In this document: piece by piece, positions 6,661-30,122 of the stretch
Layout: each line of letters starts with the position of its first letter
Numbering within the stretch: position 1 is the first letter of the stretch
From: Fibrobacter sp.
Lineage (GTDB): Bacteria; Fibrobacterota; Fibrobacteria; Fibrobacterales; Fibrobacteraceae
NCBI GenBank assembly: GCA_031271785.1
Contig: JAISUZ010000077.1
Span: 1-33,736, forward strand
Reading direction: 5' to 3'
Length of the DNA: 33,736 bases
Notes under the pieces: generated by a model
Databases searched by the model: none
What the model was told of the DNA's origin: nothing
What the model saw: the letters and a program-made list of their open reading frames with translations, nothing else
Made by a program: the position numbers and the translations under genes

Positions 6661-8018
6661 TGGAAATCCTTACTTCCAGGCATTGGCTCGAATGGGCGAT
6701 TACGATTGCCAAATTCGCTTTTGCTTTTGTCCCGATCGGCTTTATCCTTTTGCTCATTCCGCTCGAACGGCGCGGCGCGGGTTTTATTCAAGACCGTCAG
6801 GGGCCGAACCGTTCCTATTTTAAGCTCCCTTACTTTGGACGCATTCGTTTGTTCGGATGGGTGCAGAATGCTTGCGACGGCTTAAAACTCTTTTTCAAAG
6901 AAGTGTATGCACCGAATCATGTGCACCGGATTTTGTTTGCGCTTGCGCCGGCGATTCCGTTTGCGATTGTGCTGATTTCCCCTTGCGTGATTCCGTGGTT
7001 TGCGCCGATGGTTTTCACATTCGGCGATGCGGTGATCCGGATTCCCGGGCAGACGGTCGATTCCGAAGTGGGCGTGCTTTTGCTGTTCGGTTTATCTTCT
7101 CTTTCGGCTTACGGTGCGGTTCTTGCCGGCTGGGCTTCGAACTCGAAGTTTTCGCTTCTCGGCGGGCTCCGCACAAGTGCGATGACCATCAGTTACGAGG
7201 TGTGTCTCGGACTTTCTCTGATGGGGATGCTTCTTCTTGCAGGGAGTTTCCGGATTGATGAAATTATCGCGTGGCAGGATGCTCACGTTTGGGGAATTGT
7301 CGCTCAGCCGGTCGCGTTCTTCTGCTTTTTGATTGCCATGATTGCCGAAACCGGCCGCGCTCCTTTTGACGTGGCGGAAGGCGAACCCGAACTTGTGGCG
7401 GGTTTCCATACGGAATACGGCGCGATGCAATTCGGTTTGTTCTACATGGGTGAATACAGCCATATCGGTATCAACAGTATTTTGGTGGCGTGCCTTTTCC
7501 TCGGCGGCTACTCGGTACCGTTTGTGGAAATGTCCACAATTCAAGCCAATGTGGGGATTTCGCTCGGCGTTCTTTGCGGTTTGATAGTGCTTGCGCTGCT
7601 TGCGTTCCTGCACATGATTTACCGTTACTCCCGCTGGTATAAAACCAGTTCCGCTTCGAATAAAGAGGTGATTCTCCGCGAATATTCCCTTTACAAATTG
7701 CTCGCCTGGGCGGCAGTGCCTGTGGTTTTGGTGCTTGGAATTTTATCCGCGCTCTTTTTTCATCCGGAATACACCATCATTAACGGCGAAATGGTTTACG
7801 GCGCGGGCGTGGCGTTCGGGACCGCTTTGATTCAGCTCCTCACGCTTCTTGTGAAAGCTTGTTTCTTCTGCTGGGTTTGGATTTGGGTACGTTGGACGCT
7901 CCCGCGTTTCCGTTATGATCATGTGATGCATCTCGGCTGGAAAGTGATTTTGAACATCGCCCTGATTAACCTGGTGGTGACCGCCGTGATTGCCAAACTT
8001 GTGTTAGGAGGCAACTAA
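6657..8018 (+). CDS. nuoH: NADH-quinone oxidoreductase subunit H (NuoH)
   Basis: NuoH is the membrane subunit (ND1 type) that joins the peripheral and membrane arms and lines the quinone channel. It is strongly hydrophobic, with the family motifs ERRGAGFIQDRQGPN near residue 38, the AETGRAPFDVAEGEPELVAGFHTEY loop near residue 225, and a final WVRWTLPRFRYDH segment. It has 453 residues, against roughly 330-350 in many bacteria. The additional length falls mainly between the helix after VEMST and the penultimate helix (about 285-395) and includes an additional hydrophobic pair. The double ATG at 6657 and 6660 leaves a one-residue ambiguity. The first overlaps the nuoG stop, and the stop overlaps nuoI by 1 nt. 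Confidence 0.96.
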   Translation: MMEILTSRHWLEWAITIAKFAFAFVPIGFILLLIPLERRGAGFIQDRQGPNRSYFKLPYFGRIRLFGWVQNACDGLKLFFKEVYAPNHVHRILFALAPAIPFAIVLISPCVIPWFAPMVFTFGDAVIRIPGQTVDSEVGVLLLFGLSSLSAYGAVLAGWASNSKFSLLGGLRTSAMTISYEVCLGLSLMGMLLLAGSFRIDEIIAWQDAHVWGIVAQPVAFFCFLIAMIAETGRAPFDVAEGEPELVAGFHTEYGAMQFGLFYMGEYSHIGINSILVACLFLGGYSVPFVEMSTIQANVGISLGVLCGLIVLALLAFLHMIYRYSRWYKTSSASNKEVILREYSLYKLLAWAAVPVVLVLGILSALFFHPEYTIINGEMVYGAGVAFGTALIQLLTLLVKACFFCWVWIWVRWTLPRFRYDHVMHLGWKVILNIALINLVVTAVIAKLVLGGN

Positions 8019-9135: not shown

Positions 9136-9449
9136 TGGAATTACAAGCCGTTTACATTCAGTTTTTGGCGTTATTCATTTTTGCCGTCGGGATTGCGGTG
9201 GTGCTCACGCGGCGCAATGTGTTTTTTGTGCTGATGGGAGTGGAACTTGCGCTGAATGCGGTGAATTTAAGCCTGATCGGTTTTTCCAAAACGCTCCCGG
9301 CGGCCATGAGCATTACAGGGCAAGTGGTGCCGCTCTTTACGATTGCCGTGGCGGCGGCGGAAGCCTGCGTGGGTTTTGCGATTTTGATTCTGATTTACAC
9401 GAATCAGGAAAGCGTGGATGTGGACAATTACTCAAACATGAAGGGATAA
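9135..9449 (+). CDS. nuoK: NADH-quinone oxidoreductase subunit K (NuoK)
   Basis: NuoK is the ND4L-type membrane subunit, three transmembrane helices in 104 residues. The two intramembrane glutamates thought to take part in proton translocation are visible: E37 in LMGVELALNAVNL and E76 in AVAAAEACVGFAIL. The length is standard. The start overlaps the nuoJ stop by one base. The AAGGAGG ribosome site lies 7 nt upstream. NuoL follows after 3 nt. Confidence 0.97.
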   Translation: MELQAVYIQFLALFIFAVGIAVVLTRRNVFFVLMGVELALNAVNLSLIGFSKTLPAAMSITGQVVPLFTIAVAAAEACVGFAILILIYTNQESVDVDNYSNMKG

Positions 9450-9452
9450 CAA

Positions 9453-11405
9453 GTGAATACGATACCTCTTTGGTTTATACCGCTTTTTCCTCTTTTCGGG
9501 GCGATTGTTTTAGGAGTGATTTCTCTCGTTTCCTCCTCTTCCGAAGAAGGAGCTCCGGAAGGGATTACGGGTACGCTCGCGGTGCTGTTTCCGTTCCTCA
9601 GTTTTATTTCGACGGCGGTATTTGCGTGGAATATGCCGGCGGAAGGTTTTCGGGAAACGCTCGGTTCCTGGATAGATACCGGATGGTTCAGCATTAATTT
9701 CGGGTTCCTTTTCGACGGACTTTCCCGAACCATGCTTTTGTTTGTCACCGGCATCGGTTCTTTGATTACGCTTTACTCCGTAGGTTACATGCACAGGGAC
9801 CGCGGCTTTGTCCGTTTCTTCTCTTACATTAATTTGTTCCTGTTCAGCATGATTGTGCTTGTACTTTCCGATTCTCTGCCGTTTACGTTCCTCGGTTGGG
9901 AAGGGGTGGGGCTTTGCTCTTACCTGTTGATCGGGTTTTGGAATGCCGATCAAAAAAATGTGGCGGCAGCCAATAAAGCTTTTATCGTGAACCGCGTGGG
10001 CGATCTCGGGTTTTTACTCGGCATGCTTGTACTGGTTTCTATCGGCGGTTCCGCGCTTCTCAGTTATCCGGAATTACTCAGCCTGTTTGCCGGCGCGGAT
10101 CTTTCCGCGATGGTAAGAGAAAACATTCAATGGTTCTCTTTGGCCGGTTTCCTGATTTTCTTCGGCTGTACCGGTAAGAGCGCGCAGATTCCGCTCCTCA
10201 CCTGGCTCCCGGATGCGATGGCTGGCCCTACGCCGGTTTCCGCTTTGATTCATGCCGCTACGATGGTGACTTCGGGCGTGTATTTGCTCGCTCGCCTTTC
10301 GGGGATGTTTGCCGTTCTTCCCGATGTGCTTTTCGTGATTGCACTTGTGGGGCTTGCAACGGCTTTCTGGGCGGCGGTGGCCGGACTTTTCCAAAACGAT
10401 ATTAAGAAACTCCTCGCTTACTCCACTATTTCACAGCTCGGTTTTATGTTTATGGCGGTTGGCGTGGCGGCGTTTGATGTGGCGATTTTCCACGTGTTTA
10501 CTCACGCGTTTTTCAAAGCGGCTCTCTTCCTTGGGGCGGGCGCTGTGATTCACTCGCTTTCCGGCGAACAGGATATGCGGCGTATGGGCGGGCTTCTTAA
10601 AAAACTGCCGCTCACCGCTCTCGTTTTAATTTTCGGCTGGCTTGCGATTATCGGGTTCCCGGGTTTTGCGGGTTTCTGGTCGAAAGATTTGATTCTTGAA
10701 AGGTTATATGCCTCCGCTCCGGTAACGGGCCCTGTTTTCTATGGCGTTGCCCTCTTAACGGCGATCATTACCGCCGTTTATATGACGCGCTTTGTGATCC
10801 TTACGCTGTTTGGAAAATACCGCGGCTCTGCCGAAACCGAAGCGCACATTCACGAATCTCCCGCGAGCATGATGATTCCGATGCTGATTTTGACGGTCGG
10901 CTCCGCTTTTGCCGGGTTCCTTTGGGCGGGCTTGATTCCGGGCGCCGATCTCTTTAAGAATTGGCTCGCTCCGGTGGTGGGTGCGGCGCAAGCGATGGCT
11001 CTCGAAGGCATGCACGGCCCCCATCTCTCTCCGTGGATCTTTGCGCTTCTCGGTACGCTCGCAGCATTCCTCGGGATTTTTGCGGCTTGGAAACTCTTTA
11101 TGCGTCCGGTTCCGCAAACCAAAGAAGATACCGTTCCCCGCGGCTTCGGCGGCGATTGGACGTTCTTCTTCGATAAGCTGCATTATTACTGCGTTCTCGT
11201 TCCGGTGCGTGTACTCGCCTGGATTTGCGATAAAGCCGTTAACCCGTTCGTAATGCTGATTCAATGGTTTATCGGCGGTATTGCCGAAATTTTAGGCGAA
11301 GGCGTTCGCTCCATTCAAGCGCGGAAAATTCGCGTTCAGGTAGGGCTCAGTTTTGCGGGAATTATTTTGGTTCTCGCTCTCGCCGTTTTTTGTGGAGGAA
11401 TTTAA
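9453..11405 (+). CDS. nuoL: NADH-quinone oxidoreductase subunit L (NuoL)
   Basis: NuoL is the distal antiporter-like (ND5 type) subunit with the long lateral helix. It has 650 residues and is predominantly hydrophobic. Family motifs are visible: FLGWEGVGLCSYLLIGFW (about 149-166), AFIVNRVGDLGFLLG (about 177-191), and PLLTWLPDAMAGPTPVSALIH (about 248-268) with the discontinuous proton-path helix. A hydrophilic stretch near 555-570 precedes the last helices. The start is GTG with AAGGG at 9441-9445, 7 nt upstream. No ATG is better placed. The stop abuts the nuoM ATG exactly. Confidence 0.97.
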   Translation: MNTIPLWFIPLFPLFGAIVLGVISLVSSSSEEGAPEGITGTLAVLFPFLSFISTAVFAWNMPAEGFRETLGSWIDTGWFSINFGFLFDGLSRTMLLFVTGIGSLITLYSVGYMHRDRGFVRFFSYINLFLFSMIVLVLSDSLPFTFLGWEGVGLCSYLLIGFWNADQKNVAAANKAFIVNRVGDLGFLLGMLVLVSIGGSALLSYPELLSLFAGADLSAMVRENIQWFSLAGFLIFFGCTGKSAQIPLLTWLPDAMAGPTPVSALIHAATMVTSGVYLLARLSGMFAVLPDVLFVIALVGLATAFWAAVAGLFQNDIKKLLAYSTISQLGFMFMAVGVAAFDVAIFHVFTHAFFKAALFLGAGAVIHSLSGEQDMRRMGGLLKKLPLTALVLIFGWLAIIGFPGFAGFWSKDLILERLYASAPVTGPVFYGVALLTAIITAVYMTRFVILTLFGKYRGSAETEAHIHESPASMMIPMLILTVGSAFAGFLWAGLIPGADLFKNWLAPVVGAAQAMALEGMHGPHLSPWIFALLGTLAAFLGIFAAWKLFMRPVPQTKEDTVPRGFGGDWTFFFDKLHYYCVLVPVRVLAWICDKAVNPFVMLIQWFIGGIAEILGEGVRSIQARKIRVQVGLSFAGIILVLALAVFCGGI

Positions 11406-12890
11406 ATGTTGCTTCATTTTTTGACTCTCGCTCCTTTTATTGCCGCGCTGCTGATGGTGGCGGCTTCCGGTAGAGATTCCAAATCGGCGTTTCGCCTCGC
11501 GGTGGTGTTCGGTTCTATTTTCGCGGCGGCGAGCATCGGGCTTTTGCTTCGCGGAGCTTCCATCACCGAGCCGATGGAATGGTTTTTTGTGCCGGGCGCA
11601 AATATTACCGTTTATTATGCGCTCGCCTCTCACGGTTTCAGTATGTGGCTCGTGTTTGTCTCTTGTCTGGTTTCGCTTGCGGCTCTCGTGGCCGGGCGGG
11701 ATTCTTTTGAGGGGAATTACCGGAATTTTGCCATCGGTGTTTTTGCGCTTCTCGGGGCGATGAACGGTATGTTCCTTGCGGCCGATGCGGTGCTCTTTTT
11801 CTTCTTCTTTGAAGCGATGGTTTTCCCGGCGGCAATGCTCATTGCTTCTTACGGCGGCGCGGAAAGGAAAAAAGCGGCCATTCGGTTTGCGATTTATACG
11901 CTCGTGGGTTCGGCTCCGCTCTTGATGGGGCTTTGGTACCTGATGACGCTTGCGGAAAGTTCCGCTCCGTTTGAATTGATTACGATCATGCTTTCGCTCC
12001 CGGAAAGTACGCGGAATCTTTTGCTTGTTTGCTTTGCGCTCGCGTTTCTCGTGAAATCTCCGATTTTCCCGTTCCACGGCTGGCAAGCGAAAACTTATGC
12101 GGAAGCGCCGGCTCCCGTTTCGGCGATTTTGACCGGCGCCATGTCCAAGGCCGGGATTTACGGATTTTTATTTTGGGGGCTCCCGCTTCTTTCTTCGGAT
12201 TCATTGACTTCGATTTTTATTTGGCTCGGGTTGATTACGGCGGTTTACGGTGCGCTCATGGCGCTTCGCGCGACCGATGCGAAAAATCTTCTCGCGTTTA
12301 GTTCCATGGGGCATTTGGGCCTTGCCATGGCCGGGCTCTTTGTGCTTTCGGAAACTTCGACGCCCGCAGTACTCGTGTTGCTTGTGGCTCACGCGTTATC
12401 GGCTAGTGCTCTCTTTATTTTGATCGGCGCGGCGGAACGCTTTGCCGGCTCCAGAGACCTCGGTAAAATGGGCGGCTTTGTGAAAAGTTCGCCGGTGTTC
12501 GGCTTCCTGTTCGGCTTTGCCGGTATTGTGGCGGTGGCTGTTCCGGGAACGGCGGGTTTTGTGGGCGAATTTCTCGTGCTGCTTTCCCTTTGGAATGCAG
12601 GGCCTTTGCCCGCGCTGATTGCCGGGATTTGTATTGTACTTTCGGCGGCGTATATGCTTCGCTTGATTGCGGCGGTTATTTTCGGGAAACCGGCGGCCGT
12701 TCGGGGTGAAACCAAAATTTCGGCGGCAGAAGTGATTGCAGTGCTTCCGATGCTTTTGCTTGCTATTTATTTCGGTGTGCGCCCGGCTCCGATAATTGAC
12801 GCGCTCGCTTACCGGGAATCTCCGGAAAGCGTTTTCGAAGAAACCGACAGTGCTGCCGACGAGGCGGAGGAAAACGAAAATGTCCAGTAA
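11406..12890 (+). CDS. nuoM: NADH-quinone oxidoreductase subunit M (NuoM)
   Basis: NuoM is an antiporter-like (ND4 type) proton-channel subunit of complex I. It has 494 residues with about 14 helices. The functionally important glutamate is E136 in FFFFEAMVFPAAML. The lysine-containing KSPIFPFHGWQAKTYAEAPAPVSAIL segment, here about residues 217-242, matches the family. The C-terminus carries a strongly acidic tail, EETDSAADEAEENEN, which is unusual for NuoM and probably lies in the cytoplasm. Its coding sequence overlaps the nuoN start region. A GGAGG site at 11394-11398 lies 7 nt before the ATG. The gene overlaps nuoN by 11 nt. Confidence 0.97.
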   Translation: MLLHFLTLAPFIAALLMVAASGRDSKSAFRLAVVFGSIFAAASIGLLLRGASITEPMEWFFVPGANITVYYALASHGFSMWLVFVSCLVSLAALVAGRDSFEGNYRNFAIGVFALLGAMNGMFLAADAVLFFFFFEAMVFPAAMLIASYGGAERKKAAIRFAIYTLVGSAPLLMGLWYLMTLAESSAPFELITIMLSLPESTRNLLLVCFALAFLVKSPIFPFHGWQAKTYAEAPAPVSAILTGAMSKAGIYGFLFWGLPLLSSDSLTSIFIWLGLITAVYGALMALRATDAKNLLAFSSMGHLGLAMAGLFVLSETSTPAVLVLLVAHALSASALFILIGAAERFAGSRDLGKMGGFVKSSPVFGFLFGFAGIVAVAVPGTAGFVGEFLVLLSLWNAGPLPALIAGICIVLSAAYMLRLIAAVIFGKPAAVRGETKISAAEVIAVLPMLLLAIYFGVRPAPIIDALAYRESPESVFEETDSAADEAEENENVQ

Positions 12891-14337
12891 TTTGATGAAT
12901 TTTCTACCGATTGTTTTGCTCGCTTTCGGGGCGCTCGTCTCTCTCGCCTGCGAACCGTTTTTGAAAAATGAAAATAAACACCGCGTGATTCCCTGGATTA
13001 GCGCTGCATTTATTTTGTTTTCCGCTCTTTCATTCTTTGCTGCTATGGACGGCCTTTCTTATAACGTGTTTGCGATGGATCCGTTCCGGCGGTATCTCGG
13101 CTGGACCATTCTTTTTTGCACATTCCTCGGGTTAGGCGCTGTACAGACAACGCTTTCGCGTGAAAAATTTGAAGGCGGCGAACCTTACGGTCTCTTGTTG
13201 CTCGCTGCTTGCGGCGCGCTGATCATGACTCAAGCTGTGGATTTCCTTTCGCTTTTTATCGGTATGGAACTGGCGGCGTTTCCGGTTTACGGACTTGTGG
13301 GGCTTCGCCGGAAAGACCGTAACGGGAATGAGGCCGCGTTTAAATATTTTGTGACGGGCGCGGTATTCAGCGCGGTATATTTGTATGGAATGTCTCTGAT
13401 TTACGGCGCGACCGGAAGTACGCACATGAGTTCTGCCGTTCTTGAAGGCCGCCGTTTTCTTTACCATGCCGGCTTGATCCTCGCGGTATTCGGGCTTTTG
13501 TTCAAAGCGGGCGCCGCTCCGGTACATTTCTGGGTCGCGGACGTTTATCGCGGCGCTTCGGTGGCGGTCACGGCGTTTATGGCGGCTGTCGTTAAAGTGG
13601 GCGCGCTTGCGGCTCTCGGTTCGGTAATGCTCGGGAGTCTCGTAACTCCTGCAGGCGTAGCTTCGGCTTGGAATCTCTCCGAACCGGTTTCCGTGACGCT
13701 TTCGTCTCCGCTTCTCGGGAAAATTCTCGTGGTGGTCGCGATTCTTTCGATTGTCGTCGGTGCGTTTTCGGGGCTCGCTCAAAAATCCGTCCGCCGGATT
13801 CTCGCGTTTTCTGCGGTGATGAATGCGGGCTTTATTGTACTTGGTTTATTGCTCCCGGCGTATTTGCAAAAAGGTTCGGTTTATTTATGGCCGATGGTTT
13901 ACTTCCTCATTACTTACGCGATCGCTTCTGCGGGCGCCCTTGCCGGTATCGCTGCGTTCTCGGGTAAGAACGATGAAAAAGAAACTCTCAAGGGCTTGCG
14001 CGGCGCCGGGAGAAAGAAAGCGCTCCCGGCTTTTGCCGTGGCGGTGTGTCTCGCCTCTCTTGCCGGGCTTCCGCCGGCGGCCGGGTTCCTCGCTAAGTTT
14101 AATTTGTTTGCCGGGCTTTTTTCCGCGCAAATGATTGCGGTCGCGATTACCGGTTTTACACTTTCCCTGGTGGCGGCGGTTTATTATTTGCGAATCGCTT
14201 ATGTGCTTTTTGCGCCGCCGAAAGAAGAGGCTCCCGCTTGTTGCGGTTGTTGCTGCAAGTCCAAGCGGAATTCCGTGATGCTTTCCATCGGTGTCGCGCT
14301 TGCCGCCCTTTCTCTCCTCGCCCTGATTCTGGTTTAA
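12880..14337 (+). CDS. nuoN: NADH-quinone oxidoreductase subunit N (NuoN)
   Basis: NuoN is the ND2-type antiporter-like subunit next to NuoM and the last gene of the operon. It has 485 residues. Key family segments are LFIGMELAAFPVYGLVGL, the NEAAFKYFVTGAVFSAVYLYG helix and FKAGAAPVHFWVADVYRGA, followed by the channel helix. I chose ATG 12880 because GCGGAGG at 12864-12870 lies 9 nt upstream. The longer open frame from 12796 lies in nuoM and encodes a basic, non-membrane stretch. In the last cytoplasm- or periplasm-facing loop the protein has six cysteines within about nine residues (ACCGCCCKSK), just before the final helix. I know of no equivalent in standard NuoN. Confidence 0.96.
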   Translation: MSSNLMNFLPIVLLAFGALVSLACEPFLKNENKHRVIPWISAAFILFSALSFFAAMDGLSYNVFAMDPFRRYLGWTILFCTFLGLGAVQTTLSREKFEGGEPYGLLLLAACGALIMTQAVDFLSLFIGMELAAFPVYGLVGLRRKDRNGNEAAFKYFVTGAVFSAVYLYGMSLIYGATGSTHMSSAVLEGRRFLYHAGLILAVFGLLFKAGAAPVHFWVADVYRGASVAVTAFMAAVVKVGALAALGSVMLGSLVTPAGVASAWNLSEPVSVTLSSPLLGKILVVVAILSIVVGAFSGLAQKSVRRILAFSAVMNAGFIVLGLLLPAYLQKGSVYLWPMVYFLITYAIASAGALAGIAAFSGKNDEKETLKGLRGAGRKKALPAFAVAVCLASLAGLPPAAGFLAKFNLFAGLFSAQMIAVAITGFTLSLVAAVYYLRIAYVLFAPPKEEAPACCGCCCKSKRNSVMLSIGVALAALSLLALILV

Positions 14338-29733: not shown

Positions 29734-29755
29734 GAAACGGCAAGGAATAAAATAG

Positions 29756-29760
29756 GGCGT
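29756..29760 (+). repeat. 5-bp direct repeat (left), putative target duplication
   Basis: GGCGT directly precedes the left inverted repeat of the MITE-like element, and an identical GGCGT (29868-29872) directly follows its right end. It fits a target-site duplication, though a 5-bp match alone could be chance. Confidence 0.45.
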
Positions 29761-29867
29761 GCCCCGGCGCATCCACAGACACCCTGATGCTGAAACAAGT
29801 TTTCAGAATCCATGCCAAATCCTGTCATGCTGAACTTGATTCAGCATCCACTATAATGCGCCGGGTC
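29761..29867. mobile_element. MITE-like element with terminal inverted repeats
   Basis: A 107-bp non-coding unit lies 27 nt after the MlaE-like gene. The ends are GCCCCGGCGCAT at 29761-29772 and ATGCGCCGGGTC at 29856-29867. These are inverted repeats matching at 11 of 12 positions, of which the inner 10 bp are perfect. GGCGT flanks both ends. Inside are two related palindromes. One is CTGAAA/TTTCAG (29790-29795 with 29801-29806, extended by GAT/ATC after one mismatch on each side). The other is ATGCTGAA/TTCAGCAT (29827-29834 with 29840-29847). Also, 29786-29801 pairs with 29833-29848 over 16 nt with one mismatch. There is no gene within. A non-autonomous transposable repeat or a REP/BIME-type intergenic element are the two readings. 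Confidence 0.6.
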
Positions 29868-29872
29868 GGCGT
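29868..29872 (+). repeat. 5-bp direct repeat (right), putative target duplication
   Basis: GGCGT follows the right inverted repeat of the MITE-like element and matches the left copy exactly. Confidence 0.45.
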
Positions 29873-30122
29873 ATCTCCGGGCTACCCTCCGGTCGGTGCT
29901 GCGCACTGCGCGCCTTTGGCGCGCACCCTCCGCCTGCCTCACGCAATGTTCGCACGGATCCAACGCTTCGCGACAAATTGGAGCGGCTTCCAGCCTGAAA
30001 GTGTGCAATGACATTGAGGAGAAGAGTCGCCTCGCACACAGAACCAATCTTCTTAAAATAAGCACCGCCGGTAAGAAAATTTGCTTAAATTAATTAAGAA
30101 CATATCATTAAAAGGAGAAATT
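29873..30122. other. Intergenic region before the patatin gene with GC-rich hairpin
   Basis: This non-coding part holds a perfect hairpin, TGCGCGCC at 29907-29914 and GGCGCGCA at 29918-29925 with a TTT loop, not followed by a T-run and so not a classic terminator. The stretch 29880-29960 is rich in CCTCCG- and GCGCAC-type words and looks like repeat-derived sequence. From 30040 onward the sequence becomes A/T-rich and includes TTAATTAA. A strong ribosome site, AAGGAG at 30112-30117, serves the patatin gene. I see no gene: the short frames across the repeat have no protein-like pattern. Confidence 0.5.

Follow-up and report, generated by a model that had tools for sequence, protein, structure and literature searches.

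A hairpin-rich, high-copy intergenic repeat of Fibrobacter as a probable non-autonomous DNA element of the Flavo-1 superfamily

Introduction

Repeats of the ERIC / RU and BOX type are interspersed sequences of ~100-200 bp, which are imperfectly palindromic, lie between genes in both orientations and carry insertions at set internal points. Integron attC sites, which are recombined as folded single strands, have the polarity 5' R'' RYYYAAC ... GTTRRRY R' 3'. The element described here resembles the ERIC / RU and BOX repeats (PMC2229807, PMC2759123) in size class, imperfect palindromy, intergenic placement, occurrence in both orientations and internal insertion points. This likeness is one of description, and the element differs in having a compensated fold that is common to two phyla. 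REP/BIME sequences, which are associated with RAYT (Y1) transposases (PMC2817692), are likewise folded, extragenic and repeated in many copies, with clusters that form mosaics; however, our genome is without a Y1 transposase, and the element is larger and has several hairpins.

The Flavo-1 motif was described as a probable RNA (Weinberg et al. 2010, PMC2864571); since 2010 it has been known as a probable small RNA without function, and it is counted with the abundant small-RNA families (PMC9029176). In the transcriptome of F. psychrophilum, Flavo-1 is found indistinctly in sense or antisense and frequently outside transcribed regions (PMC9723704). Literature searches, whether with sequence strings or by subject, returned nothing relevant except the Flavo-1 papers.

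Here we follow up a feature in 33,736 bp of Fibrobacter sp. DNA (contig JAISUZ010000077.1 of assembly GCA_031271785.1; the whole stretch is hereafter the window), for which a first-pass annotation had proposed a MITE-like element. We consider it probable, at roughly 70%, that the feature is one member of an interspersed, non-autonomous DNA repeat that is rich in hairpins, belongs to the Flavo-1 superfamily and is spread in trans by a putative enzyme.

Results and Discussion

Extent and anatomy of the element

Self-comparison of the genome showed that the 5' flank is unique and that repetitive sequence starts at the first base of the element. A covariance model built without the window copy (R2) gave a single match to the window, at 29754-29946, which covers the element end to end (94.2 bits, E 1e-18). 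The mlaE gene (PF02405) lies 22 bp before the element, and the gene that follows on the 3' side is patatin-like (PF01734). The features are as follows.

29755..29944, + strand: whole structured repeat (GGGCGTG ... CTCACGC), 190 bp; sharp 5' edge, 3' end common to copies of the own genome, and model R2 match
29757..29761, + strand: P1 5' strand GCGTG of the outer closing stem; pairs with 29940-29944, the innermost pair being G-C, T-A or C-G in relatives
29763..29772, + strand: P2 5' arm, the left terminal inverted repeat of the first-pass annotation; 100% complementary to 29856-29865, and P2 pairs covary
29773..29855, + strand: P2 loop with two CTGAA..TTCAG palindromic repeats (29786-29810, 29827-29847); inverted repeats I1, I5, I6
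29856..29865, + strand: P2 3' arm, formerly the right terminal inverted repeat; complementary to 29763-29772
29868..29870, + strand: P5 5' strand GGC, part of the right GGCGT; pairs with 29936-29938 (in relatives GGC/GCC, GGG/CCC, GCA/TGC, GCC/GGC)
29878..29896, + strand: conserved core CGGGCTACCCTCCGGTCGG; 124 genome matches at <=3 mismatches, and pair counts
29879-29887, + strand: small hairpin GGG-CTA-CCC within the conserved core; pair counts
29896..29906, + strand: P3 hairpin GTGC-TGC-GCAC; comparison of copies with GTGCCGGATATTT...AAATATCCGGCAC
29907..29925, + strand: P4 hairpin TGCGCGCC-TTT-GGCGCGCA; inverted repeat I7, 8/8, stem sequence varying among copies
29936..29938, + strand: P5 3' strand GCC of the inner three-pair stem; pairs with 29868-29870
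29940..29944, + strand: P1 3' strand CACGC; also formed in the minimum-energy fold of the single-stranded DNA
29945..30000, + strand: 3' tail, first part of a further repeat module (AATGTTCGCACGG..CCAACGC..) present after many copies; self-BLAST depth

The element had been placed at 29756-29872, which stops 72 bp short at the 3' side. Its supposed terminal inverted repeats are indeed complementary (10/10 between 29763-29772 and 29856-29865), but these arms form the inner stem P2, and the true outer pairing is that of GCGTG (29757-29761) with CACGC (29940-29944). The flanking GGCGT sequences are no duplication either: that on the left is P1's 5' strand, whilst that on the right (29868-29872) is internal, contains the 5' strand of P5 and sits in a TCGGCGT that is conserved in most copies. 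The inner twin palindromes are present and pair mutually over 15/16 bases, but are no part of the conserved element. The P2 loop is hypervariable, as short as 3 nt in some copies and well above 100 nt in others, and a CTGAA..TTCAG-type palindrome is found in it in 24 of the 90 fully delimited copies, the rest having other loops or none. The palindromes constitute a repeat of their own that sits within the element. Moreover, the P3 tip carries inserts of >100 bp in other copies.

Copies, ends and gene context

Searching the whole genome with the core pattern (<=3 mismatches) returned 124 copies, and none with the reversed pattern as control; another whole-genome search gave dozens of partial matches. 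The genome therefore holds at least 124 copies by the core pattern, of which 111 were read with their flanks and 90 had both ends set. The unit common to these 90 starts with (G)GGCGTG, ends with CTCACG(C/T) and measures 86-362 bp. Model R2 recovered 130 of the 150 scored candidates, which is a lower bound. As far as the first-pass annotation implied a strongly folded, non-coding and dispersed repeat, it is borne out; the feature is not a single copy.

Only 1 of the 111 copies falls inside a called gene, and thus the element is intergenic. On the 5' side 52 neighbouring genes are co-directional (median distance 12 bp) and 49 opposite (median 97 bp), and on the 3' side of the copies in the same genome the counts are 37 and 39. 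The Bacteroidota copies described below give ratios of 38 : 37 (5' side) and 33 : 40 (3' side). The copies are orientation-neutral relative to genes.

The 3' side of the copies is a mosaic of other repeats that fades over ~300-500 bp, with none on the 5' side; past the window copy, self-BLAST depth is 48-73 until ~+51 and 0 at +71. Modules beginning AATGTTCGCACGGTTCCAACG.., GAAGAAAAGGCATTCGTATATGCC.. and GTGTTTTCGCGCGATTCCAACACTTTTT.. trail the element exclusively on its 3' side (for example at loci L001, L005, L010 and L020). The ends of contigs C17, C47, C51, C56, C69, C112 and others lie within a few hundred bp past the 3' end of a copy. Since contigs end just 3' of copies, the assembly is probably interrupted by this mosaic, and the repeat may therefore also account for such breaks.

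Fold and compensatory changes

The fold comprises the outer stem GCGTG/CACGC, P2, the inner three-pair stem P5 and three small hairpins. The minimum-energy fold of the window copy as single-stranded DNA contains P1, P2, P3, P4 and the P5 pairing, all unprompted (z -6.0). None of 200 shuffles was equally stable, and the structure thus goes beyond chance.

In an alignment of 30 Bacteroidota sequences (A1), whose structure was drawn by hand, 99.2% of cells are paired and seven pairs have changed on both sides; covariation is 0.180, against 0.063 in shuffled and at most 0.047 in slid controls. The Fibrobacteraceae-type alignment (A2) has 96.4% paired cells and a covariation of 0.131 against 0.046, and the fold also holds in 100 matches (A3), an alignment that was itself fitted to the structure. 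The outer stem is kept through compensation: the innermost P1 pair is G-C, T-A or C-G, and F. hydrocarbonoxydans has a P1 of GGGTT/AACCC. Compensated pairs are common (120 cells), whereas G-T or A-C intermediates are rare except for one invariant T-G pair, found in nearly all Bacteroidota members, which is a wobble on the modelled strand only. In P1 of the copies in our own genome, G-T outnumber A-C mismatches by 28 to 1, of which 26 come from one position (CACGT ends) and possibly from one lineage; in Bacteroidota, with the invariant T-G pair set aside, the ratio is 9 to 21.

Frequent compensation, rare one-sided wobble and orientation neutrality, taken together, favour a DNA element. The scarcity of wobble fits a fold at the DNA level, although stem-wise exchange between copies could produce the same pattern. 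The covarying stems, and the invariant pair that wobbles on one strand only, would also suit a structured RNA, either transcribed as such or forming a 3' or 5' UTR structure as the Rfam Flavo-1 entry implies. However, the other wobble intermediates are rare, the neighbouring genes have no preferred orientation in either phylum, and one small genome carries >100 copies.

Relatives and the link to Flavo-1

A similar repeat of Bacteroidota prompted a pattern spanning both forms. This pattern matched at least 120 stretches, and Bacteroidota make up nearly all of the 80 among the matches listed. The Bacteroidota form reads GGGCGT(G/T)CCCC-N-GGGTCGGGCTATCCGCT...TATCCCT(C/A)ACGC. The core was present in 11 of the 41 genomes searched first, our own included, with 1 to 6 matches in each of the other carriers. 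A further, named Fibrobacterales genome (locus L231) also carries the element. Three FISUMP-type proteins occur in our own genome, and both of those tested match TIGR02145; with the L231 genome, they point to a probable Fibrobacter-like bacterium as its source. A minimal, 62-nt form was seen on a contig labelled Dehalococcoidia (L192, from a MAG), by mis-binning or transfer.

A covariance model of Bacteroidota members only (R1) found 4 to 124 copies per genome in six Bacteroidota. Searched against our own genome, R1 gave matches at genome-wide E values of 1.5e-5 to 0.01, which include a second, more Bacteroidota-like subfamily as well as minimal copies of the window's subfamily (on contigs C94, C23 and C20; C94:69-165 has E 6.8e-5). 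The window copy, with its long P2 loop, fails R1 at E<=1 and is joined to the superfamily via R2. As defined here, the superfamily has a GCGTN/NACGC outer stem, P2 and a conserved GGGCTA-type core. The second subfamily (L285-L303 and G000:C110:2119-2265) is nearer the Bacteroidota form and reads GGGTCGGGCTATAT..GCACTAAGGC..CAACGGAGC..TCTCCGCCC..ACTATCCCTCACGC.

The Rfam Flavo-1 model (RF01705) matches the Bacteroidota members L169, L175 and L188 at 57-77 bits, above gathering and on the opposite strand. It has no match to the window copy even at E<=10, nor to the whole window at gathering. Flavo-1 covers the inner arm of the Bacteroidota superfamily members, with the same internal-loop arrangement, and like the element occurs in both orientations relative to transcripts (PMC9723704). 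However, it is modelled on the opposite strand, has neither an outer stem P1 nor a P2 hairpin and is listed for Bacteroidetes only; moreover, the window copy has extra hairpins (GGGCTACCC, P3 and P4) where Flavo-1 has a single inner arm. Judged by these covariance models, the window family and the Bacteroidota elements form one superfamily, which includes Rfam's orphan Flavo-1 as a part.

The curation of Flavo-1 as a probable RNA (PMC2864571) speaks for a structured RNA; the opposite strand of the Rfam model, and the sense and antisense occurrence of Flavo-1 in F. psychrophilum, often outside transcripts (PMC9723704), speak against it. Overall, we regard a structured RNA as an unlikely explanation. 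On the DNA-repeat reading, Flavo-1 belongs to a larger, orientation-neutral, high-copy DNA repeat of two phyla, and its annotation as an sRNA gene is therefore probably misleading. The repeat described here would be a phylum-crossing variant of a known yet unexplained family, whose mechanism of spread we infer.

Mobility

Two Flavobacterium loci offer filled and empty orthologous sites: between flanks that can still be recognised, some species carry the element and others lack it. At one of them, in PS02336 compared with sharifuzzamanii and UBA7680, the inserted unit extends ~30 bp beyond CACGC. The comparison of empty sites suggested by the first-pass annotation is thus positive among the Flavobacterium relatives of the element, but among 26 relatives of the window's family with an mlaE orthologue none has the element beside mlaE (pattern match). 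Within our own genome the search for empty sites returned weak, chance-like matches only. Two Flavobacterium loci also suggested insertion behind intrinsic terminators, which we rejected as a rule (3 of 38, compared with 3.6% in controls).

A classical MITE, moved by a DDE transposase that recognises terminal inverted repeats and duplicates its target, would share the size of 86-362 bp, the intergenic, non-coding nature and the presence/absence polymorphism. However, the terminal pairing is of 5 bp only, and target-site duplication at the real ends (86 copies) is distributed as in shuffled flanks. Moreover, the internal stems are kept by compensation, which transposition of double-stranded DNA does not need, and none of the 111 copies read is a longer one with a transposase. 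We therefore consider a classical MITE very improbable. A transposase with matching ends, for which the first-pass annotation had suggested a search, was not found; the Y1 family (PF01797), the one looked for, is absent from the genome (controls positive in 5/14). Since we found neither a target-site duplication nor a Y1 transposase, and no preference for terminators, a MITE in the strict sense is not supported, the terminal repeats and duplication on which that name had rested being internal.

In the reading that we prefer, a non-autonomous DNA repeat, the folded single strand of the element may be the form that spreads or is exchanged, and an enzyme would act on this strand in trans. If the fold is the recognition unit, the stem tips would be free to grow or to take in other repeats. 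The question of the mobiliser becomes directly testable in flavobacteria.

Gene exchange

Two loci hint at a further role. At a split metH locus of Flavobacterium (L334-L348), four species have a gap of 90-168 bp without element, whilst in 11 species the element is accompanied by small ORFs that fall into six unrelated kinds (a second ORF in 1/11) and all read toward the 3' end of the element. The small genes in this gap encode, for example, a lipoprotein-like and an FRG-domain protein. In our own genome an array of Rhs tips (L284, contig C95, 74000-88119) holds five copies in one orientation, which separate orphan Rhs C-terminal tips (L284 coordinates 7268-7391, 9325-9454, 10102-10228, 12030-12153 and 13931-14060). 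A full-length RHS-repeat gene (PF05593, PF12255) precedes the tips and their small downstream genes, and 3 of the 5 elements are joined to Rhs core codons via the same junction.

By analogy with integrons, the element could be an attC-like site that ends mobile single-gene cassettes and whose hairpin a recombinase would cut as a folded single strand. Like attC the element is structured, has variable apical parts and at a few loci stands where small exchanged genes end, and the metH gap and the Rhs array are the loci that point this way. However, a cassette arrangement does not predominate elsewhere, where the element is orientation-neutral, and the arms (5' GCGTG/T ... C/AACGC 3'; 5' GTT..AAC 3' in the TT/AA form) have a polarity opposite to that of integron attC. 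Another Flavobacterium locus, considered as a hotspot of gene exchange, was rejected as such, since mostly the same gene families adjoin the element, which is vertically inherited there; thus the element is not always moving. Movement of one metH-locus ORF (X) as a cassette with the element was likewise rejected: X occurs at the metH locus only, apart from one distant homologue elsewhere in 22 genomes, which is without element. An attC-like role is therefore doubtful. More tentative still is the broader proposal of a gene-exchange system other than integrons, for which Flavo-1-type elements, in Bacteroidota as in the window's lineage, would serve as recombination sites in the form of folded single strands. 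In that case the elements would delimit small genes that are exchanged, as at the split metH, as well as orphan Rhs tips; the copy in the window, next to the lone patatin gene, would be one such boundary mark.

Lastly, a different repeat of ~105 bp was seen in Flavobacterium (L185:2524-2631), which occurs many times over in most Flavobacterium genomes that were searched.
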